From: Isoetes taiwanensis
Taxonomy: Eukaryota > Streptophyta > Lycopodiopsida > Isoetales > Isoetaceae
Direction: 5' to 3'
Assembly (NCBI GenBank): GCA_021234155.1
Contig: JAJEKV010000020.1
Coordinates: 7,610,563 to 7,674,562 of the forward strand
Length of the DNA stretch: 64,000 nucleotides
Part shown: positions 12,985-32,931 of the stretch, piece after piece
Numbering within the stretch: the stretch's first letter is position 1
Layout of the letters: every line of letters begins with the position of its first letter
Notes under the pieces: model-generated
What the model was told of the DNA's origin: nothing
The model's input: only the letters and a program-made list of their open reading frames with translations
Database searches by the model: none
Program-made: the position numbers and the translations under genes

Positions 12985-13576
12985 TTTATGTGTGATTATA
13001 CGAAGGCAATTCAAGCACTTTAATTTGTATGTAATTTGTGATTCTGATGTGATTGTGCTTGGTAGCAATCAGACAATCACCTCATTACGGGAATTGTTAC
13101 ATGTTGGAATCGATTTGTATGTGATTAAAGTAAGGCGGTTCAAGCATGAGAACATTAGTGGTTGTTTGAGTGTCTTCCCTATGTTGAAAGTCGCAAATTA
13201 CATTAGAATTCAAATTTAATTACAATGCAATTACAATTCAAATTTATAAATTTGTACGTGTATTATATCAAGAGTAGTTGAAGTAGGAAATTCTGATTGT
13301 ATTTTTTTTAGTATATGGTAAGACGTGATTGTGTAGCGTTTGTGGTTGATGTTAGCATTTGTATTTTGTTTATTAGATTCTTTGATTCGTTGGCATATTG
13401 TATGGGATGGACGTCTTGGATTGTAATTTTTTGTGGGTCTTGATTCATGTAGTTGTCATGTTGTACAGACAGTCGGAATATGTATGGAATCCATTTTGCT
13501 TTTGCTAAAATATGTTGGTATAATTTGCCTTCATTATCCTGGAAGTAGATATTGAATTAGTTTGTTATTGTGAAAT

Positions 13577-13601
13577 AAGTCGTATTTAATTAAAGTGGGA
13601 C
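13577..13601 (+). repeat. Left terminal inverted repeat
   Basis: The 25 bp are perfectly complementary to 25,772-25,796. They contain the internal palindrome TTTAATTAAA and end in GTGGGAC. GGGACTC-type motifs recur just inside the right end, resembling subterminal transposase-binding sites. Confidence 0.88.
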
Positions 13602-14841
13602 TCATTCCATTCCCATTTTTTTTCGGAACCCGGTTAATTTACATAAAAAGTAGCACCCCGACCCGAAAACTATCCTTAATTCGAATTTTTGAATAAAACT
13701 CAACCGAAGTCACGTAGCTTTTCCTGTGTTTGAAGTCGAGAACAAAAACAATGCAACTGAAACAAAGGAAATTCATTAAAGTTTGAAACTAAAGATCTAG
13801 TTGAAAATGAATTTTTTATTAATAAATTGAACAGATACAATGTATTTTACATCTGGACGCAGAGACCATGGCGGTCTTTGCCGTCACCAGATTACATCAT
13901 CTTGGTAGGTGGTCCACCTTAGGGGATTAACTTGTGGCTTCTTCATGCCGCCCAGAAGCCTGGGGGGGCAACCTGGAAGAGTGTGGAATGCCTCACGTGG
14001 AGGTGCTCTCGGAGCTACGGCCGACCCTGTCCCACCGACTTCTCCACTCCCCCCCCGCAGACCTTTCATCGAATATGCTCCATCCCCAACCTCCGATGGA
14101 TGTTATGCAATGCTTGCAAGATGCCTTGAGCTTCCTGGACTATCTCTTTGTTCTTCATTTTTTCTTTATCCCCGAGGGTGTAGCGAGCAACCTCACTGGC
14201 GCGAGCAACCTTTGTCCCAAAGGCCCGGCAAGAGCGTAGCGGACCGGGATTCGTGCGAAACAAGTATTTCTTCCGCTTTGAGCTGGATCTGTGTCACTGG
14301 AGCGGTCTCTCGTGATGCCTCGAAAGCGGGATCTGTGGCTGGTGTCGGATCGTGCCTAAACCACGGAGCAAGGAGAGTATGATTAACAATTACGGTGCCA
14401 TTAGTCAAAACGAAGAAAAGAATGTTGAAATCAAATTACAGCGGAGAACATTCATTCCATACAATCGCATCCAATGGCGTGGGAAGTAGTGTGTCTTTTC
14501 GACTCGTAGTCGAAAAGGCCCATAAAGAATCAAAAGTACAACCATTCTCATTAGAATATGGTTGCATCCAATCACACGGAAGCATACAAATGCTTTTTGT
14601 CAACGAGACAAGCATGCCTTTTCGACTTCGAAGTCGAGAAAGTCCCAGAAACCCAATGTACAAGCATTATCATAATAGATTGTACAAGCATTTCATCAAC
14701 ACGACAAGCATGCCTTTCACTCGTGAGTCGAAAGGCATCGTAAAAACTCAATATACAAGTATATTCATTACAAAATGGTCAATACATGTGTTCACGCTCG
14801 ATTATAATATTCACACAATTTGACTATCTCGCAAAGCAGGG
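13602..14841 (-). other. 3' non-coding part of the minus arm, with palindromes
   Basis: No supported coding sequence lies between the left TIR and the end of the FCP1-like frame. Three short palindromes lie here: CTTTTCGACT-CGT-AGTCGAAAAG at 14,495-14,517, TCGACTTCGAAGTCGA at about 14,622-14,637, and an imperfect one at 14,711-14,737. The open frames overlapping on both strands are likely shadows of this GC-rich sequence. Confidence 0.5.
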
Positions 14842-15570
14842 TCACTCTTCTTGTTCACCAAAGTATTTGTCGCCCATAGCTTTCATGATCGGCTTGCTCT
14901 CGGATCGGGTTCCGTGAGGCTCGGATAGTTCGTAAGCACATCGGCGACAAGAATGGCAAAGGGATTCCGCCAAGGCAGACGAGTCAGAAGGACAACCACC
15001 CTATCCGCCTCATATTCTTGTGTCGATATGGCTTAGCAATGATTGTATTTTTGCCGTTATGATAGCACTTGTAGGCGGAGTCGTCTATGATCAGCGTGTT
15101 GTGTTTGCCATAGTCCTGGAATTGCTCATAAACCCTGTCCAGCCTTTTCACCATTATAGGCTTCCCCTTTGTGATGGCTGGATCGAGGTCCTTCACATGC
15201 TCGACCCTTTCGTTTCCCCAAACGAACTTGAACTTCAAAACTGAAATGCCGAGAACACCAAGAACATTGACAATATTTTTCTTTGCCATACAAGACCATA
15301 TGCCCACTTCGAATCCCCGTTCCAGGCACCATTCAATAATTTCCTTAGCTCTAGGCCTCGGATACACTATTTTATTATGCTCGTTTTCATTGGGATCTGC
15401 GAGGTGTTAATCGGGACGTCTTTGTCGTGGTATACCGCAGCTAATACTCCATTGACGTCAAATATTACAAGCTTGGTGGGACGAATTTGGATCCCGGTTG
15501 AGTTTGGCTCGACCATATTTCGGTTCATCGGCATCCAAATGCGGGATCATTATCTTCTCCGGTCCTTTCG
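14842..15570 (-). pseudogene. FCP1/NIF-type HAD-domain protein, C-terminal part, frameshifted
   Basis: Read on minus, the segment gives GIQIRPTKLVIFDVNGVLA (HAD motif I), YPRPRAKEIIEWCLERGF then VGIWSCM (motif II), a lysine-containing middle, and NTLIIDDSAYK (motif IV). It finishes MKAMGDKYFGEQEE before TGA. That is the order of an FCP1/NLI-interacting-factor phosphatase domain. The nucleophile Asp is present, but the second acidic position is Asn (DVN instead of DxD). This variant recurs in plant 'LDxNGLL' HAD proteins and probably lowers or abolishes phosphatase activity. At least two frame changes are needed: one near 15,400 between motifs I and II, one near 14,995 before the C-terminus. 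It could equally be an exon chain with indel errors. Confidence 0.65.
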
Positions 15571-15819
15571 GGCGTTAGCATGTCACCGCCTGATTGTCTT
15601 TGGGAAGTGCATTCTCCTCCTCATTGAAGTGAACCGATGCTTTCCAATGACAATGATCCGAGTCGATTGACAATGAAATCCCTCGAAATGATGACATCCG
15701 CCAGAAAGGAACGAGTTTTTCTCGACTGCGAGTCGAGAATGAAAAAGAAAAGGTATTGAAAGGAAACGTTTTTCGTTTCGCGAGTTCGAGAAACACCGAT
15801 AGAGCAAAAGTAAACTCAC

Positions 15820-18800
15820 CTCAATCTCGGGTTTTCAATAATGTTTTCGCAGCATTCTCGTCCAAACCTTCGACATTATCGCCTCCGGCCGCTTTGTCTC
15901 CCCGCCATCGCCGCCTTTTATTGCTTCCATTTGTCTTCCTCCCCTTGAAATGCTCATGAAGCGCATCCGTGTATGACTGGAATGGTTTCAACCATGTCCT
16001 TATTTCCAACCACGGATATAGGTTTCATTCCAAACAAAGATAGCCCCCGAGAGAACAGCCATTCATGTACCACTCACATACAATTTGATCTTCCCACCAA
16101 GCTGGTTATGAAGTACTTGATAACTCTTGGCCGGATAGGAATTCTATGTATAGGACTGTCCGCACCATCTTTCGACCTTGTCCATCGATGGAACATCCTC
16201 CATAAACCCCCTTCCGGGGTTCCATCCGCCTTGAGATCATGAACTTGTCGAGATAATGATGCTCGCTAGACCACCACTTATCCAGTCGACCGTAGATCTT
16301 GAAATCAAAACCAAAACTATGTTGGCAAAAGCTTGGTGCCTTCGGCAAGCCAAGTCTGCACTCATGATCAAGTTCAGATATGGAGTGCATGATCTTGTTG
16401 GTGAAGTTAATATCACCGCCCATTGGGAGACAAAGATTGTTTGATTGCCCGCATGCAAAAGACAAGGAAACCGAAAGTATCTAGGTCGGTCATGTCCGCA
16501 CACGCCTTGTACCACCGCTCTATGTCAGCTTTGTCATAAAAAGGGTGGGTCTTGATCATATTGATGGCAAATAGTGCCACACGGGTCCAGGTGCCGCCTC
16601 CAGACCACCAAATCCCTTGTGTCCCAAAGTAACCGGGAATGGGGGGAGCTATCGTCGCCTTTAAATGGGACCACCCGAATCCAAGCTTCCTTTTTTAATT
16701 GCCATAGCACGCTCAGTGGAAAGGAAGGGTTTTGACGCTACTTCAGCTTGGTGTTGATGTAGGGTTGACATAGACGGGTTCAATTCCTTCATGTCTTCCT
16801 CATCAAGGGCAGCCTTTTCCTTGTAATAATCAAAATCATGGTATTCATTAGATGCAACGCTAGTAACTCCGTGATGCCTTCTTCGCACTGGCCGCTTTTA
16901 GGGGCGTGGCATAATCCTTTTGCGGCCCGCATTTTAGAACTCCCGGTCTTCCTTAGCAGGATTGTTCCCTCCAAGATTTTGCCTTGTAGGTCAAGCATTT
17001 CTTTGTCCGTGAGGCCCCTCAGATCCTCTTCATGAACCGCTTGTCAAACAACTTGGGGTCCGCCTTGGAAATTCTCCATTGCTGTCCTTCAGCCTTGCCT
17101 CTTGTCCATTGAGCCCATATGTCGGGTCCATTTCTCCTGCATCAGCCAAGGTGCTAAGAATGAGGTCATATTGGTGAGAGACTCCACCTTTCCTTTGTTT
17201 TCTTCTTCTTCTCCCTCTTCTTCCTCTCCCTCGTCATCTTCAAAGGTCTTCCCTCCAAGGGAGAACATTTCCACGCAATGTTTGCCTGCCTAGCGTGTAT
17301 GATCTGGTCGATAAAGAGACTGCATTCAGACAATGTACCAATGTCGAGCATGAAAGTATCTACAAACACCCTAATAAACATTAAATAGTAGCTCGGGTTT
17401 TCGACTCGCGAGTCGAAAGTCCCTTGAATGTCTAATTTTACTTCTCTGGTTTTTCACTTTCGAAGTCAGAGAAAGCTCTACATCCTTTGATTTTTTCAGT
17501 GTTACCACGGCTTTCGACTTCGAGTCGAGAAACCCCAGTGATAATCGGCAAACAAGGATGGCGGGGCTTTTTCGACTCGCGAGTCGAGAAGTCCCTTGAA
17601 TGTCTAATTTTCTTTATCGGCTAAGGGTTTTCGATTTCGCGAGTCGAGAAAGCTCTGTGATCCTTTGATTTTCAGGATTTATTCTGGCTTTCGACTCTGG
17701 AACGAGAAACCCCTGATAATGTCGGCAAATGTTAGATGGTAGGGCTTTCGACTTCGGTCGAGTGAATGGAAAGATTCGAGAGAGTTATTTACCTTAATGC
17801 TGGCACTCGCCGCTATTGTGTTCTCGGGCTAATACGCCGGGCCGATTCGTTGCCGGGCGCTCTCCGCCGAAAGAACTTCTGACTCTCGCTGGCATATATC
17901 TATCCTGATCTTTTGCGGCACCTCCTTCTCCGCCTCCCAATACTTGAGCCGCCTCACTGAATGCCGACCGCCTACAACCCTTAACTGGGACAGTTTTCCC
18001 CTTCAAGATCTTCCTCGTGACTTCCACAACAACTCATTGCCGATACGCTAAAAGGTATGACATCCGAGGCATTGATTCGCAATAGATGTCGCACCATCAG
18101 TTGTAATCTCCAAAGATGTGTGTGGATTAAATTCCCGTGGTTGAACAAGACGGCATCTCCCGGGCAAAACCTTCACAAATGCCTAATGTCCAAAGCAGCA
18201 GCTTGTGTGATATTCCCAACGGATAATCTTGAGCTAGACGCTCCATTTTTAAGGTGCCCTCTCTCGCGGAAATCCCCGATCGATCATCCGGATCGAGGTT
18301 TGGGGACTCGACCATATCTTCGTCTCCTTCCTCATCTGATTCCTCCCGTGTGGTGTCATCATCCCCATCTTTGTTTTTTGGTGGACTTTTTTGTGTATGA
18401 ACCACAACTTCATTCCCCACTGTAGAGTGTTGTAGAGTCTTGAAGACAAGAGAAGTGAAGCTCCCGTATTGAAATGTTTTCCCTCGACTCGAAATCTCCA
18501 TACCAAGCTCCCTCGGATGTTAGGGTTCCGGCCTCCTTCATCCCTTCCAGATCCTTCCACCCAAGGTTCTGACAATTTAAAGGCGCCGGCCTTTTTTCGG
18601 TGCCCTTAGCCTTGCTCATGGAAGAGTGAGAATAATTTGAAACTGCTAATTTTTTGGTGCGATAGAACTTACTTTCCGGCAGTCCCTCGACATGTAGTGT
18701 TAAATGCTTTGAATGGCGCAGTAGAGACGAGAGCACAACACCGATTTTCTTGTACTTGTCTCCGAGCTCTTCTTGTCCCTTTGGTGTAGAAACAGATCTT

Positions 18801-19190
18801 TCTCCTTCCCACTTGTCGATACCTCGACATACCACATCAAGAATGCTGCTGTTTCAAGAAGCTCTGTCTCCATCCCTCGATGATCGAAAGAATGGAGTTC
18901 GCCGGTGATCACCCGTGAGTCCGCGGTGAATCTTGCAAGATGAAAGGATGGATCGGTTAAGGTATTAGACAAAAGAAAACCTCGAGCTCACCGGGGTGTT
19001 TGTCTTCTTCTTCTTTGCCGCCGGTAGAAGCATCCCCTCCAAACTTCTTGGACGGAGTCATGTCGAGATGCCCTCTCATCCTCTTGACCCCTCTCAGAAT
19101 TAAGTCTCCTCCGCCGCGTTGTGAGTTTTAGGACCTGCATGTAAAAAAGATCGGGCGTGTTCTTTAATTTGAAGTTAAGGACATGCAATC
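15820..19190 (-). pseudogene. Upstream coding-like segments of the minus-arm gene, unrecognised
   Basis: Several minus-strand open stretches look like exons of one protein upstream of the HAD domain: about 16,106-16,560 (with MIKTHPFYDKADIERWYKAC), 16,661-17,035 (RGLTDKEMLDLQGKILEG), 17,089-17,274 (with a Glu/Asp run EDDEGEEEEGEEEE), 17,794-18,027, and 18,127-18,575 (acidic TREESDEEGDEDMVES). Frames change repeatedly and no family is recognisable. The acidic runs suggest a nuclear protein, but this is inference. Exact exon limits cannot be fixed by eye. Confidence 0.35.
17398..17765. repeat. Tandem duplication of a palindrome-bearing unit (~175 bp)
   Basis: Two copies (about 17,398-17,573 and 17,574-17,750) share GAAGTCCCTTGAATGTCTAA-like sequence, AGAAAGCTCT...CCTTTGATT and GAAACCCC...TGATAAT. 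Each carries three TCGACT...AGTCGA-type palindromes about 58 bp apart. The arm sequences vary while the dyad symmetry is mostly kept. Confidence 0.75.
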
Positions 19191-22130
19191 ATTTATGAAA
19201 AGAAGCGGGCTAAGCAGGCCAAAGACGGTCGGCTTTAGCCCACCAAACACTATTTCGAAATTTAATCACATCAAGGGACTAAGTGCTTTTAGAAATGTAG
19301 TTAATCTTCCTGCGGCATTGGGGACCTCGAGTTCGGAGGGGAGCATGTTGTTAGCGACTTCGGAATGGCGCCGCCTTGGTAAGCCGCTAACGGCGCCTTG
19401 CATATGTGTTTTTTCACGGCGGCCGCCCTATTGCAAGCAGTTGATTTGATCGATGACACGGACTAAGGTAGGAAGCGGAGAGGTACGCCGAACCAAGGGG
19501 AACTCTACAACTGCGGGCGCCATGGAGCGGGGATACGAGAATCCTTGATGATACAAGTATTAGATGCGAATACACTCTTGAAGAGACCGACGTAAGAAGC
19601 AAAGACTCTAGGTGAGGTGCGGGATCCGTGATCTGATGGGCCCAAGGAATTCTAGCGTGAAGAGGTGAGTTTGAGAGATGCCTATGTTATTTCGCTTGTA
19701 GAACATGCCGTATGTGTTTAAATAATGGAGCTGGCCGATAAGCTCGACGGATTCATTGTTTCTTTGTCGAGCATTTTTCAGCTTCGATGGATGATTTACT
19801 CTCGGGTTGAGAGATGCTCGCAAGGAAACAATGGATCGGGGTAAAGAACAGTTCCGTTTTAGGTGTGTTTTTTTTCATGGACTGTTTACTTGGAATGTTG
19901 TACATAGATCAGGCTAGGACTAAGGCCCGGGGAGATGCGGTTCAAATGCATCCTCTTGTAGTTAGTGGGAGGGGCCTCAAACTGTCAGAACCACTCCTCT
20001 TCACAATATTCGAGGAAGATGGTTCAAGGAGAGTGGCTCAGGCAGGGCTAGAGGCACTTGGGACTAAAAGCAGGAGAATAGAAAGTCACGATTACTTGTA
20101 GAGAATGCAAGCCTTGGCTTCCTCCTGGTAACTCCGCGGGTTAGCCTCCACTCCACGGAGCCCCTCCCCTTCGCAATATTCACGGACGAAGATGGTTCAA
20201 GGAGAGTGACCCGACGGTCGCACCGCTACCATATAATTGAGAATTGGTTTCTATACCCCGCAGTCGAGAATGCATCAGAGTGGCTGACCGCAAGTCGAAA
20301 GAATGCCTTGGCCATCCAGAACTCCGTTACAATACACGATACGTTAAGGCATTCCTACTGTCAGAAGCGCAGGAATGGTACCCTTCGCGGCGAAGCTCCG
20401 GTAGAGGTTGCCCTACACATAGAGAATTGGCTGTTAGAGGTCTCGACTAGCGAAAATGTTGCGGGTCGCAAGTCCAGAATGCCTTAGCCATCGAACTCCC
20501 GATGGTACACATGGAGTGCCGTTGGGTAAGGCATTCCCACTCAGCGAAATGAATGCATACAAAGAAGCTCTGTGGTTTCCACGGTGGGTTGCTAAGAGTT
20601 GGCCTGCGGAGCCGATCAAAACAACTTCCCGCCGCCAATGTCAGGAAGATAGAAGGAGAGTTGTTAAGACTGTCTGCAGGCCAGCTCTAGAGTGCACTAG
20701 AGCTGGCCGTTTTCGACTCACGCGCGAGTCGGCGGCCACACACCTATAGTTGATTGGTTCGCCGAGGCCTCCCCCAATCCAGAGCCCATCCCCTTCGCAA
20801 TATTCCGGCCGAAGATGGTTGAAGGGCGGTCTTTGATTGAATAAGCCATTGGGCCTACAGGAGAATTGGGTTGCTAAGAGTTGGCTCTGACGGTATGAAA
20901 ACCACTTCCCTTCGCAATGTCGAGGAAGATAGAAGGAGAGTGGTTAAGACTGTCTGCAGGCCAGCTAGAGAGTGCACTAGAGCACAGCGTTTTCGACTCC
21001 GACTCGAAAGCGGCCAGCAACCTCGGTGGTTAGTCGTAGAGGCTCCCCCCGGTCGGAGCCGGTCCTCTTCGCAATATTCGATGAGCATGGTTGAATGAGA
21101 GTGGCTCAGGCTGGGTGGAGGCACTGCGGCACAAGGGCCATGGCGGTATCACATTTCGACTCCGCAGTCGAGAAGGCTCGCAACCCAGGGTTCTAAAGAA
21201 TGTGAAGACATTGGGTATTTGTGCAATCGAATCGCGAGTCGAGAATCCCTCAACCTGCCAACAGTCCCGAGTGTACACTCCCTCTTCTCGCCCCGGAAGT
21301 CGAAGGATTCTCGATTTCGCGAGTCGAGAAAGAAGGCATACTTCTGGAATTTGTTGGCAAAAGTTGGAAGTATTCTCAACTCGCCACTCCTTCTGCATGT
21401 CTCTGCAGTGGATTTCTTTGTGAGTTAGAAATGGAGATTTACGTGAAGCAATTCCTATTCGAGTTCTTCTTTGGGAGAAAGACATTCCTAGTTATTTTTG
21501 TTAATGCTGCAATATCTTACTTCCTAACACCGGTCTCGATGATTTCTATCTGGGTTGCTTGCTACTACTCTAACCACTATTCTCACTTGTGCACGTACAA
21601 TGTATTCAATTCAACCACAAGCAAGAAAAAGATAACAAAAAAAAAAACAATACAAAGATTAATGAGATTAATGAGAAAACAGAGAGTGGAGAACAAAGAC
21701 AGAGAAGAACAGTGGAGAACGATCTGAAAAATGAGATTAAAAAGGGTATGATATTACAAAAACATACCGGAAGAAGATTTTGGATGAGGAGGAGGCTTCG
21801 AAGTTCGCTTCCATGTGGGTATAGTCGTTGGCAAAGCGTGAATAAGGATTTGTCGGGCCAGAATTGTATCGAGGGGATTAATAAGAGCCTCTAACAACGT
21901 AATATAAGTAAAAATGCACTAAAGGACTTGAAAACTAAAAAAGCGGCACTAAAAGGGCCTCACTTTCTTCTCAAAGCGAATCGCTCGAACAATGAATCTG
22001 CGAGAACCCGGTATTTGGAAGCGTCCCGATCCGTCGACCAAGTCTTTGTCATAAGATGGCCTTGGAATCGCTTCGGTTCGATCGATCGCTCGATCGGTAA
22101 AATGAGCGCCCTAAGGAAACGAGGGGAGGA
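19191..22130. repeat. Degenerate tandem repeat tract in the minus arm
   Basis: From about 19,980 to 21,130 a unit containing CCCTTCGCAATATTC, GAAGATGGTTCAAGGAGAGT and CAGGCAGG recurs. Two copies about 275 bp apart (20,640 and 20,915) also share TTAAGACTGTCTGCAGGCCA and a downstream TTTTCGACTC palindrome. More palindromes lie at about 20,709-20,725, 20,988-21,007, 21,153-21,170, 21,224-21,242 and 21,308-21,326. No protein family is visible. Confidence 0.6.
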
Positions 22131-22339
22131 AGAGTGATCGAGAAAGCGAGGGGAGGAAGAATGGTGGGGGGGGAGAGGAAGAGGGTTAATTAATTACGCT
22201 GCACCCTCGAACCTCGTAAAAGTGCAATAATAAAACCATTGTCACGTGTGGGCCATGCCCTCCATGGCGTGGCGATCTTGCGGATTCTTGACATGGCCCG
22301 CGGTTTCAACCTCGAAGAGGCGCCGCGTGGCCATGACAA

Positions 22340-22640
22340 AAATATGAAAGGGTAGGTTATATGTTTATATATGTTATCTTATGTATTTAATAAGGTTTCA
22401 ATGGTTGTATTTAATATGGTTTCAATGGTTGTATTTAATATGGTTTCAATGGTTACAATGTTTACATATGGTTTAGAATGAGTGTGGTTGTATGCTTTAA
22501 TATGGTTATATGATTTTAGTTAATATGGTTGTATGATTTTAGTTAATATGGTTGTATGATTTAATATGATTATATTTAATATGTTTGTATGGTTTTATAT
22601 GGTTCATATGGTCATATTTGTGGTGTTTGGGGCTATATGG
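22340..22640. repeat. AT-rich TATGGTT minisatellite between the two arms
   Basis: Imperfect repeats of ATTTAATATGGTT(TCAATGG/GTATG) run through this stretch. It sits between the divergent arms of the TIR element, where promoters for both would be expected. It has little coding potential. Confidence 0.7.
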
Positions 22641-22675
22641 TTTTAATGTGAGCTTTTTCATTCAGGGAGCATGTG

Positions 22676-23118
22676 AGATGAGTAAAATGGAGCCAGGGAA
22701 TTCCAAAGGAGGCCATTGCCCTAGGCTCCAATGGAGGAAGATGGGTTGCCTTTTGTTGCACCCTTGCAACCAGACGGTATTTGCAGAGGGCATAATAACT
22801 GCAGTTGATCCATTTGATAGTGTGAATGATGAGAGGCTGGGAGATGAACATCTTGGAGTTGGCATTGTGAAGCTTCTTATCGAAGTTGATACTATCATGT
22901 CCCAGGGAAGCTCTAGTGATTGCATTGTGTGCTCAGGGCTGCTGGAGTCCCAAGCTCAGTTGAGATGGCCAATTAGATTTATTACACACAAGAATGGTGA
23001 TACTCTAGAATGCCCTACTGAACTACACACCCCAAGGCCCACCCAAGGCCATGTGGAAGATTTGGTGGTCGATGAGCATCCTTTGATCACAAGGAAGAGG
23101 CGCTATGTCTTTTCATAA
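22676..23118 (+). pseudogene. DUF8039-like segment of the plus-arm gene
   Basis: The frame reads ...QWRKMGCLLLHPCNQTVFAEG then ITAVDPFDSVNDERLGDEHL, VGIVKLLIEVDTIM and LRWPIRFIT. The 'cV...G.V...DP...V...LG...V.V..V...WP' pattern resembles the small domain called DUF8039 in plant transposon proteins; this is a memory-based match. It probably begins after a CAG at about 22,672 (ATTCAGGGAGC) and passes into the DUF7869-like part after a frame change at about 23,115. Confidence 0.4.
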
Positions 23119-25600
23119 AAGGCGACCAAAAGGTGCCCAAGAGGCCTAGAAGTGACAAATATTTAGAAAGGATGGAAAGTATGGCACCAACCAAAAAAAC
23201 ACGGGAGGCAATTAGGGGACAAGAGTGTTGCAACCTAGATTGCCAGTGCATTACAATGTGGATGACCTCGTGCGAGATAAGGTCCCAATACATTGGACAG
23301 CTTCAAAAGATAGGATTAATTTCATTTACTCCTTGTGTAGGAATTCCAGCTATGATGAAAACAGCGGGCCCGGCTGCTATATCAATTGAGGGGAATGAAG
23401 GTATGTATGAGAGCATTGAGATGGATTCTTGGGGTGAGCAAGTCTTCATTTTACTGAATCTTTGGGGCGAGGTTAGAAAAGGGCACACTTTGTTCCAACA
23501 TGGTAATGCACTCACTTTGAAACCTAGAGCAAATACTCTAAAGGCCATTGCGGTCTTGAGAGCTTTGTGAGATACATGTCTCAATCTATGCCCCACAAGT
23601 CGAAGGTGAAGCGAGCACGGTGTGCAGTGGTGCAAAAAGTGTTGCCACAACACTATATCCAAAAGGAGTGCCTTAAGGAGGTCAACTCCATCCTAGAAAC
23701 TCTTGGAGGTAGGCCTCTTTCTCAATCACATTTCAGCAAGTTATGGAGCACTCACTTCTCGGACGTGAGTGTCCTACAACACATGCCATTCTCAAAGTGC
23801 AACACTTGCATTCAACTCAAGGATACACTTGCATCAACTGCAATAGAGAAAGAAAGAATGGCAATTAGGGAGCAATTTGCAGATCACCAAAGGGACCAAA
23901 TATCATGTAGGCGGTTGTATTGGCGGTGGAGAACATTTTTCGAGATGCGGTAGGACAAATTTTTGTGTATAATTCATGATAGGATGGACCAACACAAGAC
24001 TTTCTTGCCAAAGCTAGATCCTTTACCCAAAGCGTTGTCAAAAGCGCTTTTCGGATGAAAGTAAGTCCGGCGGGTGTATTAACACATGGTCATGGAGGCT
24101 GGAACATATGGTCATTTTGTGCTTGATCTATGGAGAGATGATCCAAACTTCCATGTGAGCTCTATTTTCAAGTGCCGAGAACACTAGAGAAAGGATCGAT
24201 AGAAGGGAGGAGGTATTCCCCTCAAGCACCCATTTTTGAGGCTTTGATGGATGATCAACCGCTTTGTTACCAAAGGCAGATAAAAAAGCTCACATCCAAG
24301 GTGTCTAGTGAATCAAGGAGGACTTGGGATGATTTCCCCTTACTTGAGAAATCACTGCCTGAGGAGCTATGTGTTCAGTTGGACAACTGTTGGAAAGAAA
24401 ACAAGAATAGATGGATGTTTGGGGCAATGTCATACTTGATAAAGAAGTGGGAGTATTCAAAGTTGTGAAAGTGGGATTCATGATGGTTGGGCATACGCAT
24501 GATGATATAGATGGATTCTTTGGAACTTTCTCCACCAAGCTCAAGAGAGAAAACGTGACCACTCTCCCTGAACTAATGGATGTGTTTGAGAGCTGCATTG
24601 ACCCCAACCCAATGGCTTTCTTGATGGATGAGGTTGCGATTGGAAATCATTTGTAGAAGGATACTTGCTAGATGGCAAGGACCAGTTGACAGGACACACA
24701 AAGCCACTTCAATTCAAGTTTTGGGTTAGGGATGGAATACCAATCATGCAATATAAGTGGAGACCAGGTGACAAGTTGTGGATGCCTGTACAAGGTATCG
24801 AGTTGTGGCAAAGGGTGCTTCTTTGGTGAAGTTCTCATTCCTAAAGGGCAGCCAAAACCACTACCTCCCTTCAAGGCAGGTCAAAGACTCTAGCCAACTG
24901 GTGAAGGGCATCAAGGATTACATAGCATGCTTGGGATGATGTTGAAATGGAAAGCACACCTCCACTCTTAAGAAAAATCAAATGGACTCCCTAATCAAGT
25001 CTTTGGGAGAAAGTTGTGACATGCTTAGAAACCCGAGCAGCCATGTGGGAGGGAGCTAAGAGATGGGTTCTTGCCGAGTCAAGATGGGAGGGTTCTCAAG
25101 GTGCAAGCACGTCTAAGAATGCTCACTTGGGTCCCAACAAGGGTTCCAAGTGGTTTGTGGGAAGTAAGGCCTCAAAGCCGAAGTGGAAGTGGTTTGATCT
25201 TCCTGAGTGGGATCCCTTTGAGGACATCAAGGAAGGATATTTTGTGCTAGTAAGGCGATGATGAGGACTGGTCCAATATGGTTAGGGGTGGCACTCTCTG
25301 ATGTGACCACCACTATGCCACGATGGAGAGGAGTTGCGTCCCGGATTCCAAATTCAATATTGGGAGCCCATTGGGAGGCACAAGAAGGGCAACTTGAAGG
25401 AGCAATACACCGACTGGCTTTGGGAGAAGAAGTGGAGGGCAATTATCTTTGACCCTCAAAGGAGGGAATTGGTGGAGTGTGTGGTATGGTCATATCCAAG
25501 TTCTCACATTGCAAAAGACAACACACACAAGATCCCAAGAAAGGAGATGGACAAGGCCATGAGCAACCTCCATGCTATATCATTGTATGAGGGTGCATAA
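23119..25600 (+). pseudogene. DUF7869-like putative transposase, multiply frameshifted
   Basis: Collinear pieces in changing frames match the DUF7869 layout: a Cys pair region (GQECCNLDCQ, about 23,218), CNTCIQLKDTLAS with a following H...RRLY (23,800-23,925), FLCIIHDRMDQHKTFLPKLD (23,955-24,015), GVLTHGHGGWN (about 24,075), CVQLDNCWKENKNRW (24,370-24,415), VGHTHDDIDGFFG (24,487-24,525) and a C-terminal region to 25,600. The three acidic blocks (HDRMDQ, LDNCWKENKN, HTHDDID) could be an RNase-H-like DDD active site; that is inference. At least four frame changes occur (about 23,115, 23,575, 24,055 and 24,465), so this copy is inactive unless they are assembly indels. Confidence 0.72.
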
Positions 25601-25771
25601 TATTGAGAAGTTTGAAAACTTTCTCAACTAGTGGTTTGTAAAATTTATGAGGAAAACAAGTAACCCAATTCTATGTGTGTCATGTGTAATTCTATTCAAG
25701 CAATCAATTCAGAAATTTCTTTTATGGTGTGTGAGTCCCATTTTCAGTCCGAGTCCCAAAATTCAAGATTT

Positions 25772-25796
25772 GTCCCACTTTAATTAAATACGACTT
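25772..25796 (-). repeat. Right terminal inverted repeat
   Basis: This begins GTCCCACTTTAATTAAATAC and is the exact reverse complement of the left end. Immediately inside (25,738-25,770) GAGTCCCA occurs twice, a subterminal repeat. Confidence 0.88.
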
Positions 25797-25800
25797 AAAT

Positions 25801-26640
25801 ATGTTTGTTGTATATGGTATTTGTTGTACCTGCGTTCTTATTTCATGCAATTCATTTGCATTATGTTTGTTTAGAACGAAAGCTTCTTTGTTATATTGTT
25901 CAGAATTGATTAGTATTCATTAATTTTTACCTTTTAGAAATTGATGTTTTGATGTTTACCTGGATTATGCCATGATGATTTCAAGCGATTAATGCTTCTT
26001 TATATACAATGTTGGGCGTAAATATCTTCTCGTTCTTTAATAGAGCACCTTGTGTTGCGGTATCTTCGATGCTAATTTTGACACCATTCATTGACGTGCA
26101 TCTAGATAAGGCAACATATAATTGACCATGTATGAAGACTGGAGAAGGTAAATAGATGCCAACAGATTTCAATGATTTTCCTTGTGACTTGGAAATTGTC
26201 ATTGAGAAAGCCAATCTTACAGGAAATTGTCTTCTGCTGAAAGGTATCTGGCTGTCTGAAGGTGTCAAGTTTATTTTTGGTATTAGGACACGCGTTCCTT
26301 TGAATGTTTCAGTAATAATTTCTGCGTATAGAATTCTGTTTGTTGCTTGAATTACTTGCAATCGAGTGCCATTACATAGTCCACTTGTTGGATGCATGTT
26401 TCTAAGCAGGATTATTATCGACCGTTCTTTAATATTCAGTTTGTGTGGTGGCATTCCTGTTGGTGTCAAATGATTCAAAAACTCAATTGGAAAATCCCTA
26501 ATATCATTTTGATCGTCAGTTTCTAGAGTGTCGACACTGATGTATGTATGTAGGTTCCCGTGCATTCTTGCTAGTACTTTCTCATTCAACTTCAATGTAT
26601 CTTCATTTTTTGGTGCAGGAATTGCTTTCTCTTGCAAGAC
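25801..26640 (-). pseudogene. Helitron helicase, C-terminal half (PIF1 type)
   Basis: From 26,637 to 25,981 an open frame reads KAIPAPKNEDTLKLNEKVL, then S-DTLE, FPIEFLNHLTPTGMPPH, LLRNM...GLCNGTRL, MTISKSQGKSL (motif V) and YVALSRCTS (motif VI), ending near IVYKEALIA. This is the RecD-like second half of a Pif1-family DNA helicase as in Helitron RepHel. It is cut off from its N-terminal half by a 2.2 kb insertion. Downstream (to 25,801) is Helitron 3' non-coding sequence that resumes at 13,572. Confidence 0.9.
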
Positions 26641-27209
26641 TGTTTTTGAGGGAGGCGCTCATGGAGGCGCTTAGGGTTTCAGCCCTGCTCTTTTGCTCAT
26701 AACTCGGGATTCCGGTGTCAGATTCGGGTGTTCTTGGGCTCTTGGAAAGCTTATCAAACGAGCTTTCCATCGGTGTATGATTTGTATGGTGTTTCCTCTG
26801 TTTTGTCGACGGAATCCACCTGACAGTCCCGGCCCTGTTTTGGCGGTGCTAGGGTTTGGCTGCAGTTTTCTTTTGGCCATAACTTCTGTATCTGGTGGCA
26901 GTTTTGGGTATGTTTGGGCTTGTTGGAAAGCTCTTTGAGCACTCCATCCAGTGGTGCTTAAACTTTTCAGAGATTGGCCTGTTGGGAAAGCCGGTTCAGC
27001 TCTAAAACTTTGGCCTCTGAAACTTTGCACACGAACGAACGGCTTCCAGATAAGTTTTCTGTATCATTTTGAATCAAGTCAATGACCAATTCTGTTAGCT
27101 TTTATATTCAGCAACAAATTAGGGAATACAGCAGAGGCTAGGGGCTGCATAGGCAAGGCAAATGCATTTGGGTAAAAAGTGGACGGAATAAGTTACGGGA
27201 CAGATAGGC

Positions 27210-27445
27210 TTAGCCTCCGCCGTACACCAGAATAGCGAGGGCTGGACCCACTAACTGGTAATCCGGACCACTATAAACTCCTGCCATAGAATAACAGCCA
27301 CCATGAAAAGACACAATGCATATGTATATAAGTGTGGTATTTGTAGTAAAAAAGGAGACTGGGATACGCTACGGACTGAGGGGTCTAACCCCCGCCGTAG
27401 GCTAGGATAGCGAGGGCACGACCCTCCAACTGGTTCCCGGATCAC
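27210..27445. repeat. Two diverged copies of a GC-rich unit, period ~181 bp
   Basis: CCGCCGTACACCAGAATAGC...CTAACTGGTAATCCGGACCA (27,217-27,273) and CCGCCGTAGGCTAGGATAGC...CCAACTGGTTCCCGGATCAC (27,391-27,445) clearly share origin. They may be part of a SINE- or LTR-like unit; I see no intact tRNA promoter boxes. Confidence 0.6.
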
Positions 27446-28387
27446 CAAAATGACTGAAGGAGAGCCTAAAGGCTTTAATAAATAATAGCTTACAAGTGCT
27501 ATTACATCAAGTGCTTGAGGATATGTTGCAGATTATGTGGACATCCATAGAATAATCAAAAAACCATGTTTGGGACTCTACAAGAAGTTTTGCCAACTGC
27601 AGAATGTCCAACAAAGTGGAACAGGGAATAGCACAATCAATTATGCTGCAGGCCTTCAAAAAACTCGAAGATGATGACGTTCATCTAATCAGGTTTTTTC
27701 ATTTGAATTGAATATCTAGTAACACACAAAACAAGGGAAGGGTGATACCATTATCTGCATAATCTGGATGATTGATCTTTTCATTCTTTTATCATCACTA
27801 AGTGATTGGTTGTTGTAAGCTATGAAATTGGACGGTTTCTTTGCACAATGCATCAGTTCTATCAACATAGTATATGCATGCTACGTATGAAATTAGGAAG
27901 TTTCGTTAGACGCTTTACACTGAACTATTAGGCAGTGACTACATAAGCTGGGGATTGTGTTAACATGGTGTAGTTAGAATAATTCAAGATGGTTTATAAA
28001 CACGGACCTTTGGACACGTGATGTTATGTTGACAGTAATTACTACATATTCATAGCTCCGGATTGGAGCTCTAATCAGTACTAATCAGTTTAGTTTAAGG
28101 TTTTTGCAGCCTAACAATAATGGCGTGGGAAAAATCCAAAATCCAGAATGACGGAAAACGGATCTGATAATAATACTGTGCATTAGTGAGCCCATTACTA
28201 TTAAGGTTTTTCCTCGAAAACCCTTCGGGGCGGGGTTTTTTAATCCTGATAGTAATCGGCGTCACTAATGTAGCCCAGGTCATAGACAGGGAAAGAGGGT
28301 TTGTAATATGAACCGCACAAAAGCGGCTCATAAACCCCACACAAATTGTTCAATTAAAAGCTGATTGATAACAACGCATCTGTGCAC

Positions 28388-28667
28388 GGCCGGGTTAAAG
28401 CATGTTAGGGTGTACCACTTATGGAACCTACCTAAAATATCTACTGGATACTCACATACGGCGATATTGCTTCATGCTCATGATAATGGATGATATGAAA
28501 AGTGCTCTAAGACATCATTCTATTACTCTCAACCATGAAGTAAAAATATTGACTATTAGCTTTGATTTAGGTACTTTTAATATCAATTAGGTATCTGCAG
28601 AAAAAGTACTCTAAAACTACCTTTTAGATACTTTTTTAGGCACACCCTAACATGCTCTCACCCGGCC
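28388..28667. mobile_element. 280-bp MITE-like inverted-repeat element
   Basis: A 26-bp terminal inverted repeat with two mismatches (GGCCGGGTTAAAGCATG... at 28,388-28,413; complement at 28,642-28,667) bounds an AT-rich core. Further inverted similarity (CCTAAAATATCT / AGATACTTTTTTAGG) extends inward. A non-autonomous DNA element is likely; the target duplication is not clear. Confidence 0.6.
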
Positions 28668-28824
28668 TTGAAGCCGATCCAAAGCGGGGTGCCGGTATTA
28701 ATAGGAAAAAGTGAAGCCTTCAGAAAAGGCTACAATAAACCAGCATGATGTGCTAGTAGCGCCCATCAGGGAGCTCGCCCGTGCTACATAAGTCCACGGG
28801 CCTCAGGACACAAGGGACAATAAT

Positions 28825-28825
28825 G

Positions 28826-28859
<34 letters not shown>
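28825..28859. repeat. (TATC)n microsatellite
   Basis: About eight TATC units lie exactly at the point where the Helitron helicase frame is lost. Confidence 0.95.
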
Positions 28860-29560
28860 ATATGTCGTCCATGTGTTTGGGGTCAATGTTTTGCCCAAAG
28901 ACTTCATCAATCAAATCAAATCTTGCAATGCATTCTTCAGCTAGGTGCACAATATTTTTGTCCAACGTTTGGTTTGTGTTCATCCGTAATCCATTGCCAA
29001 TGTCCAACAGGTAATTTGACCATTCTTTTTCTCCAGGTAGAGGACGCATATTTTCTGTTAGATTATAAGTTTTGAAATTCTTCCAAAGCATGTTACTTTT
29101 TACACATTTAGAAAGAACTTCTGTTTTGGAACCTCGTTTCACGACTGGTAGTTGTTGTCGAAAATCACCTCCAACAACCATGATGATTCCTCGGAATGGT
29201 CTTGGATCTTGTCGTATTTCCTTCAATATGGTGTCAACTGCTGTAAGTGCATCTGTGTGAGTCATACTAATTTCATCCCATAGTATGGCTTTTGTTGCTC
29301 TAATTATATCTGCTTGTCGGCTTGTTGCACGTAATGCTGATGTAGATTCAGGGGTCAATTCCAAAGGTAATTTGAAGGTAGAGTGTATAGTATGTGCTCC
29401 TTTTAACAACAAACTTGCTATGCCAGTCCATGCAACTGCCAAACGTCGACTTCATGCCCTCATAGTATGCTAATTATGGTGTTGAAGACAAACGTCTTTC
29501 CTGTGCCTCCTGGGCCATCTATATTTATGCATGTACTATTGTCATTGTTGTTTTCGACAA
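28849..29560 (-). pseudogene. Helitron helicase, N-terminal half (PIF1 type)
   Basis: On minus, DGPGGTGKTFVFNT (Walker A, about 29,525-29,480) is followed after a frame change near 29,445 by VAWTGIASLLLKGAHT, ILWDEISM (Walker B), GGDFRQQLPVV and LTENMR. These are the ordered Pif1 motifs I-III. The frame runs to DDILDR at 28,849, where the (TATC)n and 2.2 kb insertion begin. Confidence 0.92.
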
Positions 29561-30839
29561 CTAATAGTACAGTATCTATGATGCATTTCTGTTTTGTATT
29601 TTCCGTCATCTATCTCTTCATTGATATCAAATAGTATATTGTCATGCGTAGTATGGTGTTCGATTAGTTTTGGCTCTGGTAGTTGGTACACTTAGTAGGA
29701 AGTACCATTTCCGAGGATTATATCATTTATATATGTCAAACTTGCATTATGACCATCAACTTCTGGCATGTGGAGGTTGTAGTCTTCAGACATTTGTGAC
29801 TTAAACTTGTTCCACAACTCAAGGGGATTTGAGGTTGGGCCATAGATGCATATGAAAGCAAATGTTTGACGTAATTGAGTAGGCATTTGAAAGCTGGCTG
29901 CATCTTCTAGAGTTCTTTCCCATTCTGCGCCGTCGGCTAATAGACCAAGTTCATTAGCTGCTTGATGGAAATTGTCGCACTTCTTGTTATTAACAAATAG
30001 GATATCATTAAAGCTCGTCATTCCTGTTCTATGGAGTAATAGAAGTTGTAGATAGTATCTCTTTGTATCTCTTGGACTAACATTATACATCCTTGTAATC
30101 ACCTTTGTTCTTGTCTTTCTTTGTTTCCATGTTGTGTCTGTTTTATCAAATCTGTAATGTTGTGGTATTTCTGGATATGTGTACTTATGTGCTTGTATGT
30201 CAATTTTGTTCAACTCAAACCAAGCAGTTAGCATTGTTTATTTTCTTTTTGCAATCTCAATGGCTTGTTTTTCTTCTCCTACCTCATAGTATATCATTTG
30301 TTTGTTTGGAAGATGTACTGGTAGTCGATAAACAGTATGGGAGTTGTCGTGCATTTTGTATGAATTCAACCTCCAGATTGCTTCTGGTGCAGATATATAT
30401 CTTGCAACAATGTATGCTTGCACTTCATCCCAATTATATGTTGCCGTCAAATCTATGGTTGCTTGATTAGTGATTTTGATACATGCACGATCGTGCCCTT
30501 TATGGATGTATTTGTAAATGTGCTTTACACTATTGACACTGAAACATTGCTCAACATTTATATGTGCTCCATATTTTCGCGTGAGGTAAGGATTGTAAGG
30601 AACAATCATACTATTATCAACAACCATGTCTCCTTTTTTGTATTGTGCACCTTTTCTTCTCCTATATTCTGGATAACCATTAGGTTTAATCACAGTAGAA
30701 TCAATAAATTTTTTTGGAAATCCTTTGGCACATTCCATCAAGCCTGTTTTCTCATTTCGTGCTTGACACCGGGGTCCACATGGACCATGCACCATGTGTT
30801 TCATCACAATATCATGCAACTCATGATCGCTTATTGGAT
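29561..30839 (-). pseudogene. Helitron Rep protein, second exon (Tyr motif region)
   Basis: This exon starts at 30,839 after an 86-bp intron and reads NPISDHELHDIVMKHMVHGPC, then KFIDSTVIKPNGYPEYRRR, VVPYNPYL-like and HINVEQCF. It continues VKHIYKYIHKGHDRA, the catalytic Tyr region. The usual pattern is VKYLxKYxxKG; here the first Tyr is His and the second is kept. An in-frame TAA at about 30,237 precedes MLTAWFELNK, and a further frame loss lies at about 29,690. Confidence 0.88.
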
Positions 30840-30925
30840 CTGTGAAAAAAATGAATAAGTAGAAATTGCATCGCTTATTGAATAAGTTGAGTAAAATTAA
30901 TTATCAATAAGTAATAATAGCATAC
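30840..30925 (-). other. Spliceable 86-bp intron in the Helitron Rep gene
   Basis: The minus strand reads ATTCCAA|GTATGC...TTTTTTCACAG|ATCCAATA. Removing it joins EIP-N-PISDHEL in phase, restoring the conserved block before the HGPCG motif. Both splice sites are canonical. Confidence 0.8.
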
Positions 30926-32000
30926 TTGGAATCTCTGCACTTGTGATCTCGTCAATGTCATTGTTATTCTTTATTTTGTCTATTTGATCTAGTATAAGCA
31001 GCATATGACAATGTGATAGTCCTCTTTTTTGAAACTCAATAGTGTATGTGAAGGCGTTAGGCTTTTCAAATATATGATCCTCGAGGACATCATGGAAAAA
31101 TGATTTAAGTTTTGTTTGAAATACTTGTGAAACCAAGTCAGGTCGATCTTCAGGTGATTGCCCAAATTCCAAATTATCCTTGATTTTTGACCAATGTGTG
31201 TTGCATGTGAATGTAATGAATATTTCAGCTTTTCCAAATCTTCGTATGAGAGCAATAGAATCTTGGTAACTTTGGTTTAAAGCTCTTGCACTCCCACTAA
31301 ATGTTGATGGCAAAATGACCAACTTACCAGAATTCATTCCTTGATGCTCAGCTTCGTGGTTCACGTAGTCAATCAGGCCGTCATACATTTCAGATCGTAG
31401 TTTCTTTTGATTTGTCCGAATAAAGCATAAATTATTTGCTTCAACTCTTGCATATGCGTCAACGATGAACTGTTGTGTCAATTTACCAGCACTCAATAAC
31501 GGGTTGAAAGCGAACTTCACGTTGTTTCCTTGTTTGTTTTTCCGTGTTACTAGTCTATATGAATAATATTGAAGCATTGATACGTTTTCACGTCTTCTTG
31601 TATTAAATGTTCCAGGTTCTATTGCTTTCTTCATTCCAATGCTCCATCCATCATCTCCACAAGGTAATAGGATTGGATACGATAAGGCATCAATGGAATG
31701 ATGTGTGATTGGTACATTCTTCAAACCACCTCCTCTATAGTGTATACATATATCTCGATTGAATGGAGGCTCTCCATCAGGATTTACAAATATTATTGCA
31801 ACTTCATTTTCAAAGGCAGCATTATATCTATGTGGGTCCACATCTGTTCGATCTCTATTGAAGTACATTCGTATATCTGCAACGTCATTTGTTAATCGAG
31901 CATCATTTTCAGCTTCATGCATCATTTGAAGAGCTTCCGCAAATGGGTTGACAATTTTTAGTTCTTCATCTAATTTCTTTAACAGCTTTAAGTCGGATTT
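30926..32000 (-). pseudogene. Helitron Rep protein, HUH endonuclease exon
   Basis: An open frame of about 333 codons contains DIRMYFNRDRTDVDPHRYN, the Helitron_like_N region with LSYPILLPCGDDGW, FITFTCNTHW, and the HUH motif as GLSHCHMLLILD (two His coordinating the metal). A frameshift at about 31,995 separates it from the preceding segment; reading the other frame gives STKSDLKLLKKLDEELKIVN before QMMHEAENDA. The nicking domain itself looks conserved apart from the missing first Tyr in the next exon. Confidence 0.9.
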
Positions 32001-32931
32001 TGTGCTCGTTCTATAGTTGCATACTCTGTGTCAAGGATATATAATTGTGCATACTTTGGTTTCTCACCAGGATTGGAAAGTGCTGCACCCATTATATGAT
32101 ATACTTGTCCATGAATCTTGAAACAATATGGACCTCGAGTACTAAATTGCTCAACATTAGCTCCAAATGAAGCAAATGCCAATGCACTATTATAAGTCCT
32201 GATGTGTGTTTTGAACTCCTTCGAATTTGGATGATATCTAGTTAGCAAGTCATAGAATATTTTTGGCATTTCTTGTAGTGGTGGAAGATGTACCTTGCCT
32301 TTATGACAACATTTAGTACCATCATGTTTGAATTTAATAGCACCGCATGCGTTGCATTCGTGGTTTAATTCTCCAAAATGATGCAAATCCACGTTGATTC
32401 TGCTAGTATTCGTTCGGGCAAGTCTATAAGTTGAACGCTTTTCTCTACTTATTTGCTGCTCTTCTGCTTGTTGATGTAGTCTTCTAGATCTTTGGTTCGT
32501 TAGTTTCCATCTCTCGTATGGTAAGTCGATTCTTTGCTTTTTGTTGTGCACAAATATGTAACCTGGAGGCTCGAATTTCTTCAGTTTCAATTGCGTGTGC
32601 ATTTGCTCGTATATTTCTCTTTCGTATCCTTTTCCATTTTGTATTTTTGAACCCTTTCTTCTTGTTGTTGTAAGGTTTTCCTTCTTCCTTCTACTGTTAC
32701 ATCTTCTACATCATAATTTAGCATATTTCCTTGTATCCTTTTTGTGATTGTTGCATGTGATTTTCCATGTATGATCCTTTTCCGTAAAGCTTCTTCTGAC
32801 AATCTATGTTGTCTTTCAATGTCTGTCTCCTTTGCAAGGATTTCTTGTCTTCTAATATGATATCGTCTTCTTTTAATTGCAAGTCTTTCTTCTCGCTCTT
32901 GAGACGTTTCCTCGCGTTGTCTTCGTGGCAT
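31988..32931 (-). pseudogene. Helitron Rep protein, N-terminal region
   Basis: It starts at ATG 32,931 with an Arg/Glu-rich N-terminus (MPRRQREETSQEREERLA, then repeated ET..RQ..RL units) typical of Helitron Rep. A frame change near 32,620 leads into MHTQLKLKKFEPPGYIF and a cysteine cluster with CNACGAIKFKHDG and CCHKGKV, a probable zinc-binding element. It ends at a frameshift near 31,995. Confidence 0.85.

Follow-up and report, generated by a model that had tools for sequence, protein, structure and literature searches.

The 64,000-nucleotide stretch of the quillwort Isoetes taiwanensis analysed here (assembly GCA_021234155.1, contig JAJEKV010000020.1, positions 7,610,563 to 7,674,562 of the forward strand; hereafter, the window) contains a 12.2-kb DNA transposon at positions 13577 to 25796. 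We consider it, with a probability of about 0.68, to be a decayed copy of a giant autonomous transposon of the cut-and-paste kind, most likely a Sola-1-like one, that carries two divergently oriented genes: gene A, coding for a DUF7869 protein that is probably the transposase, and gene B, coding for a spliced accessory protein whose C-terminal end resembles FCP1/NIF phosphatases. The two arms were found together in every long copy examined, and both appear to be under purifying selection.

Element ends, target site duplications, and copies in the genome

The features that delimit the element are as follows (positions are those of the window).

13577 to 25796, no strand: the element, a 12.2-kb DNA transposon bounded by terminal inverted repeats (TIRs) and flanked by AAAT
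13573 to 13576, no strand: target site duplication, left copy, AAAT (present in all 11 long and all 3 short copies examined)
13577 to 13601, plus strand: left 25-bp TIR, AAGTCGTATTTAATTAAAGTGGGAC (perfect inverted match with the right end; genome count)
25735 to 25777, minus strand: three TGGGAC repeats, candidate transposase-binding sites (in 11 of 11 long copies)
25772 to 25796, minus strand: right 25-bp TIR (perfect inverted match with the left end; genome count)
25797 to 25800, no strand: target site duplication, right copy, AAAT (same basis as the left copy)
14716 to 21242, no strand: palindrome TCGACTCGCGAGTCGA, five dispersed copies at 14716, 17401, 17572, 21156, and 21227 (≤3 mismatches, all within the element)

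The two TIRs match over 25 bp without a mismatch, or over 26 bp if one flanking base is counted, and the termini read AAGTC. When the 1.658-Gb assembly (1110 contigs) was searched for the TIR with up to 3 mismatches, 1887 places were found in the forward orientation and 1931 in reverse; the reversed pattern, searched as a control, gave 0 and 0. Among the first 100 places listed, 34 neighbours pair as left and right ends, enclosing 3.4 to 5.8 kb in 12 cases, 10.9 to 12.8 kb in 12, 14.6 to 14.8 kb in 2, and more than 23 kb in 8. Ten of the 14 listed pairs of 10.9 to 14.8 kb and 3 of the 12 short pairs were examined, together with the window copy. All 11 long copies have target site duplications (AAAT, GTAT, TAAA, ATAT, ACTA, AATT, TTTA, TAGG, AAGT, and ATTA, and one of 5 bp, TGTAC), so the length is 4 bp in 10 of 11, and the three short copies have 4-bp duplications (ACAG, AATT, and TTAT).

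Both arms were found in all 10 further long copies, as in the window copy, to which they align in pieces that span both arms and are ∼77 to 95% identical. Identity to the window copy is 89.9 to 94.7% for the main right-arm pieces and 80.8 to 89.3% for the main left-arm pieces, with synonymous divergence (dS) of 0.12 in the right arm versus 0.19 to 0.25 in the left. The lower divergence of the right arm between copies suggests recombination or gene conversion among them. At the right end, 110 bp are nearly identical across all 11 long copies, and the TGGGAC repeats sit 25, 44, and 62 bp from that end.

Precise insertion into a repeated sequence was evident from the empty site. When the flanks were joined over a single AAAT, 34 of 69 genome matches (from the 40 scored of 141 first-look candidates) extend across the junction, reaching ∼20 bases or further on each side. 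Most of what an earlier reading of the letters (the sequence-only reading) had said of the structure was borne out by these data: the perfect 25-bp TIRs, a two-arm DNA transposon beside a Helitron gene, and the co-occurrence of the arms in other copies. Its concern that the TIR might occur only once fell away with the genome count. It had left the duplication as either AAAT or TA; AAAT stands, and TA is excluded because the other long copies have 4-bp duplications of varied sequence (5 bp in one).

The three short copies (L051 to L053, ∼4 kb) share terminal stretches of 65 to 241 bp with the long element in swapped orientation. Their interiors contain matches of 25 to 31 bp to the long element and are otherwise unrelated to it, and these copies look like non-autonomous relatives of the 12-kb element. 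The left end of each of them matches the right end of the 12-kb element.

The palindrome TCGACTCGCGAGTCGA, expected 0.02 times in the window, is scattered through apparently non-coding parts of the element family and is often lengthened to CTTTCTCGACTCGCGAGTCGAGAAAG. It was counted 56 times in the 11 long copies, 9 times in the better-kept left arm L066, and 13 times in the three short derivatives; none was found in L062, L064, L065, or L067.

Gene A codes for a DUF7869 protein that is probably the transposase

22678 to 25597, plus strand: gene A, DUF7869 protein of ∼960 amino acids, presumed transposase, with frameshifts and stops in the window copy (window frames, the better-kept copy L067, and substitution ratios)
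24142 to 24653, plus strand: DUF7869 core (PF25273), including QLDN with its Asp codon at 24382-24384 and GHTHDDID with its Asp codon at 24501-24503, both Asp invariant in seven aligned relatives

The window copy is broken, with no stop-free frame of 200 amino acids anywhere within the element, and PF25273 (DUF7869) was detected on two frame pieces with E values of 1e-18 and 2.6e-10. L067, a related and better-kept copy of gene A, has a frame of 830 amino acids, a single stop, and then 155 amino acids in the same frame; therefore gene A appears to consist of one exon and to code for ∼960 amino acids from its likely start. An intact DUF7869 frame of 963 amino acids (L076, 372-3260) was found in a scan of prokaryote genomes on a 4.3-kb contig filed under a cyanobacterial metagenome-assembled genome. 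It is 32% identical to L067 over 640 amino acids (E value, 3e-95) and represents eukaryotic contamination or transfer, possibly contamination. Two scans of viral contigs yielded no relative. L062 represents the best-scoring DUF7869 group of the genome; its frame of 987 amino acids is 24% identical to L067 over 566 amino acids.

Eight acidic residues are invariant in seven aligned DUF7869 proteins, some of them partial and L076 among them: Asp460, Asp463, Asp513, Asp594, Asp633, Asp636, Glu676, and Asp679 (L067 numbering). The residues lie in the conserved boxes HDKMD or IDGMD, Q[LM]DN, and GHTHD, which follow one another as the motifs of a DDE/D active site would. In motif tables that omit rows with under half of the motif letters, the first box is readable in 9 of 11 copies (IIHDKMDQ in eight, IIHDRMDQ in the window copy); of five rows for the second box, two have it intact and another keeps LDN after a stop; and the third box reads HDDID in 5 of 6 rows. 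On the evidence of the DUF7869 domain and this acidic triad, protein A is probably the transposase. Pfam lists DUF7869 as a domain of unknown function, and a literature search found no paper naming it.

Gene B codes for a spliced protein with a probable pseudophosphatase tail

14895 to 18978, minus strand: gene B, spliced and broken here, with exon 2 at ∼18978-17799, exon 3 at ∼17182-15830, and the last exon at ∼15676-14895 (tblastn with L066 exons)
14984 to 15367, minus strand: FCP1/NIF-like domain, C-terminal end of protein B, with VGIWSCM and TLIIDDS readable and motif I unreadable (PF03031, 2.9e-7)
17799 to 18225, minus strand: part of protein B that aligns with the L066 exon in which a weak ParB-like DGQHS motif lies (tblastn; phrog_1033 match in L066)

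The structure of gene B was read from L066, where a candidate first exon contains a stop, exon 2 (322-1524) contains one in-frame stop, exon 3 is a frame of 532 amino acids, and the last exon ends in DQEE; donor-like GT sites are present where exons end. The NIF domain (PF03031) was detected with an E value of 2.9e-7 in the window and, over positions 1-151 of 160, with 2.1e-8 in the last exon of L066; the scores, 30.7 and 34.4 bits, compare with a Pfam cut-off of 21.8. Motif I of FCP1/SCP phosphatases is DxDx, usually DxD. In 10 alignable stretches of protein B, it reads FDVNGVL in seven and FGVNGVL in two and is out of frame in one, and L066 has FDINGVL. All 9 readable copies, and L066, thus have Asn for the second Asp, and 7 of the 9 copies keep the first. 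Motif IV, in nine stretches, reads TLIIDDS in five, TPIIDDS in one, and IIGDS in three, so that IIDDS is kept in 6 of 9. Because of the Asn, the domain would probably bind a phospho-ligand without hydrolysing it and is probably a pseudophosphatase.

Exon 2 of L066 has the DGQHS motif and a weak ParB-like match (phrog_1033; E value, 0.049), and an SPPF motif is present in 4 of 7 readable copies and in L066. A glycine-rich methyltransferase motif was not recognisable in protein B. PDB sequence searches with three pieces of the protein gave nothing credible (best E value, 0.14), and phage searches gave a best E value of 3 for the ParB-like part and no match for exon 3.

Genes A and B are paired, as are other DUF7869 genes and methyltransferase genes

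The pairing of the two genes was evaluated over 150 scored gene A places (of 7928 first-look candidates) and at least 101 gene B places (among 3307 first-look candidates; 101 of 102 rows, the second piece of one place being dropped). There were 25 A-B neighbours within 50 kb, of which 24 are divergent, and 17 within 16 kb, of which 16 are divergent, compared to 0.29 expected; one pair is the copy that supplied both queries. Genes A and B move as a pair, and each seems to be of importance to the element.

A similar arrangement was detected for other DUF7869 families of this genome. For PF25273 there are 9902 first-look candidates, 150 of them scored; 14 control genomes yielded no match. PF01555 (N6_N4_Mtase), a family of DNA N4/N6 methyltransferases known above all from prokaryotes, accounts for 1443 first-look candidates, and all 150 that were scored are matches. 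Among the 150 scored places of each family, 24 are neighbours within 16 kb, with 0.43 pairs expected; 22 of these are divergent and 2 are not, and 17 of the 22 are spaced 4.9 to 6.2 kb apart. L077, from one of the 22 pairs, is a genuine N6_N4_Mtase fragment (E value, 7.7e-19) with the motif DAFSGSGTT. Element boundaries were not found for the L062-type genes, and no homologue of protein B was found in the 17.5 kb around L062 (best E value, 0.70).

Substitution ratios in both genes

A frame-by-frame scan for synonymous change was too noisy for exon mapping and was replaced by ratios of nonsynonymous to synonymous substitution (dN/dS) from tblastn alignments, with comparisons of fewer than 60 kept codons and stretches of less than 75% DNA identity dropped. 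Pooled dN/dS came to 0.31 in gene A. In gene B it was 0.21 in exon 3, 0.30 in exon 2, and 0.36 in the FCP1 part, with 0.44 in the ParB-like piece, a value from one copy. Reading these columns in shifted frames gave 0.86 to 0.88 for gene A, 1.0 to 1.4 for exon 3, 1.07 to 1.23 for exon 2, 0.75 to 1.33 for the FCP1 part, and 0.48 to 0.71 for the ParB-like piece.

Superfamily placement

Three superfamilies, a match to any of which would have refuted the sequence-only reading, were rejected. CACTA/EnSpm elements have CACTA-type termini and 3-bp duplications; the ends found here are AAGTC, with 4-bp duplications. MULEs duplicate 9 to 11 bp, compared to 4 to 5 bp in the 11 long copies. Tc1/mariner was rejected on duplications such as TAGG, ACTA, AATT, and AAGT instead of TA. 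The duplications, 4 bp in all long copies except the one with 5 bp, also differ from the 7 to 8 bp of KDZ elements and the 5 to 8 bp of hAT elements given in the available part of PMC12730594.

The available text of PMC10741241 describes Sola elements as having DDD transposases, 4-bp duplications, sizes mostly of 2 to 9 kb with some above 15 kb, and TIRs of 11 to 1124 bp; that of PMC3627910 describes Sola2 duplications as 4 bp and AT-rich. According to the accessible portion of PMC12477816, Sola1-1_Ec32, a Sola-1 element of Ectocarpus, is 21.5 kb long and has a ParB-DNA methyltransferase gene on the opposite strand. The quillwort element has 4-bp duplications in all long copies except the single 5-bp case and in all short copies, and its size and TIR length lie within those ranges. 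Asp460/463, Asp594, and Asp633/636 are candidates for a DDD triad, and gene B occupies the opposite strand in all 11 copies. As to ParB-like and methyltransferase domains, other DUF7869 families have the methyltransferase (L077), and protein B has the weak ParB-like motif and no significant methyltransferase similarity. Because the duplications, the candidate triad, the size, and the divergent second gene all fit Sola-1, a Sola-1-like element is the best placement and the most likely one. The claim that the element belongs to no recognised superfamily is therefore doubtful, given the fit to Sola and the Ectocarpus parallel in the part of PMC12477816 available. The proposal that the DUF7869-like protein is the transposase held up as likely, and that of an FCP1-like accessory protein survived in modified form: the domain does belong to the element, and it makes up the final exon of a larger spliced product rather than being simply an FCP1 protein.

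Weighing the explanations

Several observations weigh against the interpretation as a Sola-1-like element with a transposase and a conserved accessory protein. Sola membership is a matter of shared features rather than of a sequence match. AlphaFold models of an L062-type DUF7869 region were poor (predicted local distance difference test scores of 31.6 and 38.6), and a Foldseek search with the second of these gave noise (best E value, 0.67), so that an RNase H fold was not supported. The dN/dS values are biased to low dN by the choice of alignments by protein similarity and at ≥75% DNA identity, and exon 2 reached 0.72 and 0.78 in two individual comparisons. The ParB-like piece has no clear signal of selection, since its one-copy value is not distinct from those in shifted frames. 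A scan for synonymous change free of protein alignment flagged 2 of 121 windows in the 11-copy alignment, one in exon 2 of gene B and one in gene A. In the FCP1-like domain, two of the nine readable copies have Gly for the nucleophile Asp and three of nine have GD for DD, which points to decay or lack of constraint. The single Pfam match of exon 3 is to a family other than methyltransferases and far under the cut-off; when exon 3 was compared with L077, 404 of 500 shuffles scored as well, and hhalign gave a probability of 0.2%.

It is unlikely that DUF7869 marks a superfamily other than Sola, or other than any described, with the resemblance to Sola-1 being convergent. The silence of the literature on DUF7869, its Pfam status, and ends that match no CACTA, MULE, or Tc1 pattern would fit such a superfamily; the length of the duplications, the type of triad, and the methyltransferase gene placed divergently in other DUF7869 families coincide with what the available portions of the Sola and Sola-1 reports describe. 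A composite of two unrelated elements joined by nesting, which the unequal divergence of the two arms might suggest, is refuted by the single pair of TIRs and the short duplication that enclose both arms in all 11 copies at different sites, and we give it next to no weight.

The FCP1-like gene might instead be captured host cargo, a Pack-type passenger without a role in transposition. FCP1/NIF proteins do occur as host genes in plants, and the 17.5 kb around L062 yielded no homologue of gene B. Such a passenger is quite improbable given that gene B matches were found in all 11 long copies and at no fewer than 101 places in the genome, that the pairing with gene A is fixed and divergent, and that dN/dS is low in its exons and in the FCP1 part. 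A stronger candidate, which we rate somewhat short of an even chance, refines the Sola-1-like interpretation and is compatible with it: protein B would be a ParB-DNA methyltransferase accessory, of the type carried by algal Sola-1 elements, that has diverged strongly and gained an FCP1-like tail. Consistent with this, gene B shares its relative place and strand with the methyltransferase gene of other DUF7869 families and has the DGQHS and SPPF motifs. The lack of significant similarity to L077, of a PDB sequence match, of a recognisable glycine-rich motif, and of credible phage matches speaks against it.

If the element is a Sola-1-like transposon, protein A would bind the TIRs and the TGGGAC repeats of the right end, cut both ends through an active site formed by the Asp triad, and insert the element into 4-bp, mostly AT-rich targets. 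Gene B would be transcribed in the opposite direction from a central region shared with gene A, and its spliced product would be an element-specific accessory protein. The FCP1/NIF domain of this protein probably binds a phospho-ligand, for example, the tail of RNA polymerase II, without hydrolysis, and a role in aiding expression of the element or countering its silencing is suggested. A more detailed scenario, which we offer as speculative and improbable in its entirety, is that the prokaryote-type ParB-methyltransferase accessory of giant Sola-1 elements was turned, in a land-plant transposon, into a DNA-binding protein whose pseudophosphatase tail engages the phosphorylated tail of RNA polymerase II, perhaps targeted to the palindromes of the element, and keeps the element expressed or unsilenced.

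Insertion site and surroundings

25981 to 32710, minus strand: Helitron coding region (Rep/helicase), host sequence beside the insertion (PF14214, PF05970, PF21530)

The right end of the element lies ∼180 bp from a Helitron gene identified by matches to PF14214 (Helitron_like_N; E value, 1.6e-54), PF05970 (PIF1; 6.2e-41), and PF21530 (3.8e-15). The sequence-only reading had the Helitron resuming on both sides. This is correct for the right side; the left side has no Helitron coding sequence, and genome matches to the joined flanks show that it and the right flank are parts of one repeated sequence. Judging from its position, this repeat is likely the 3' region of the Helitron itself.

At the left end of the insertion, 224 bases (13357-13580) recur at G000 C1019:7591342 with an identity of 100% as rounded, 32.6 kb upstream of the left flank of the window, possibly as a segmental duplication. 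Elsewhere in the window, there are minus-strand open frames at 54918-56003 (361 amino acids; no Pfam match at an E value of 0.001) and 59000-59614 (204 amino acids), which by eye we take to resemble C-terminal remnants of long interspersed nuclear elements.

Implications and comparison with known systems

An element with an FCP1-like, probably phosphatase-dead accessory gene is an unusual variant of what is probably a known superfamily, and it provides a case in which a high-copy transposon encodes an FCP1-like protein of low dN/dS. Literature searches found no transposon-encoded FCP1-like or C-terminal-domain phosphatase accessory protein, no paper on ParB-methyltransferase-phosphatase gene combinations in TIR transposons, and nothing on DNA transposons of I. 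taiwanensis. The features assembled here suggest that DUF7869 is the core of a Sola-type transposase. A transposase-like gene beside a divergently oriented DNA methyltransferase gene, an arrangement reported for algal transposons, recurs in a vascular plant genome in at least 22 pairs and makes self-modification or anti-silencing by transposons testable in land plants.

Among the systems to which the element can be compared, FCP1/SCP (NIF) phosphatases share with protein B a nearly full-length NIF domain and, in most readable copies, the first Asp of motif I and IIDDS; protein B differs in the Asn at the second Asp of motif I, in being encoded by the element, and in its long N-terminal part. 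The L062-type DUF7869 genes have a homologous presumed transposase with the same acidic triad and, unlike gene A, are paired as a group with a genuine N6_N4_Mtase gene. The Sola superfamily (Sola1/2/3), as far as the available text of PMC10741241 and PMC3627910 describes it, shares 4-bp and often AT-rich duplications, a candidate DDD-type triad, and the range of sizes and TIR lengths, and some Sola2 elements likewise carry an accessory protein (Fanzor1). The closest parallel may be Sola1-1_Ec32, likened by description rather than by sequence from the accessible part of its report. It differs in length (21.5 versus 12.2 kb) and in host (a brown alga versus a lycophyte), and the accessory protein of the quillwort element ends in an FCP1/NIF-like domain and has no demonstrable methyltransferase identity. 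The two elements have in common giant size and a transposase gene accompanied by a large accessory gene on the opposite strand, and in other DUF7869 families of the quillwort the place of that accessory gene is taken by an N4/N6 methyltransferase.

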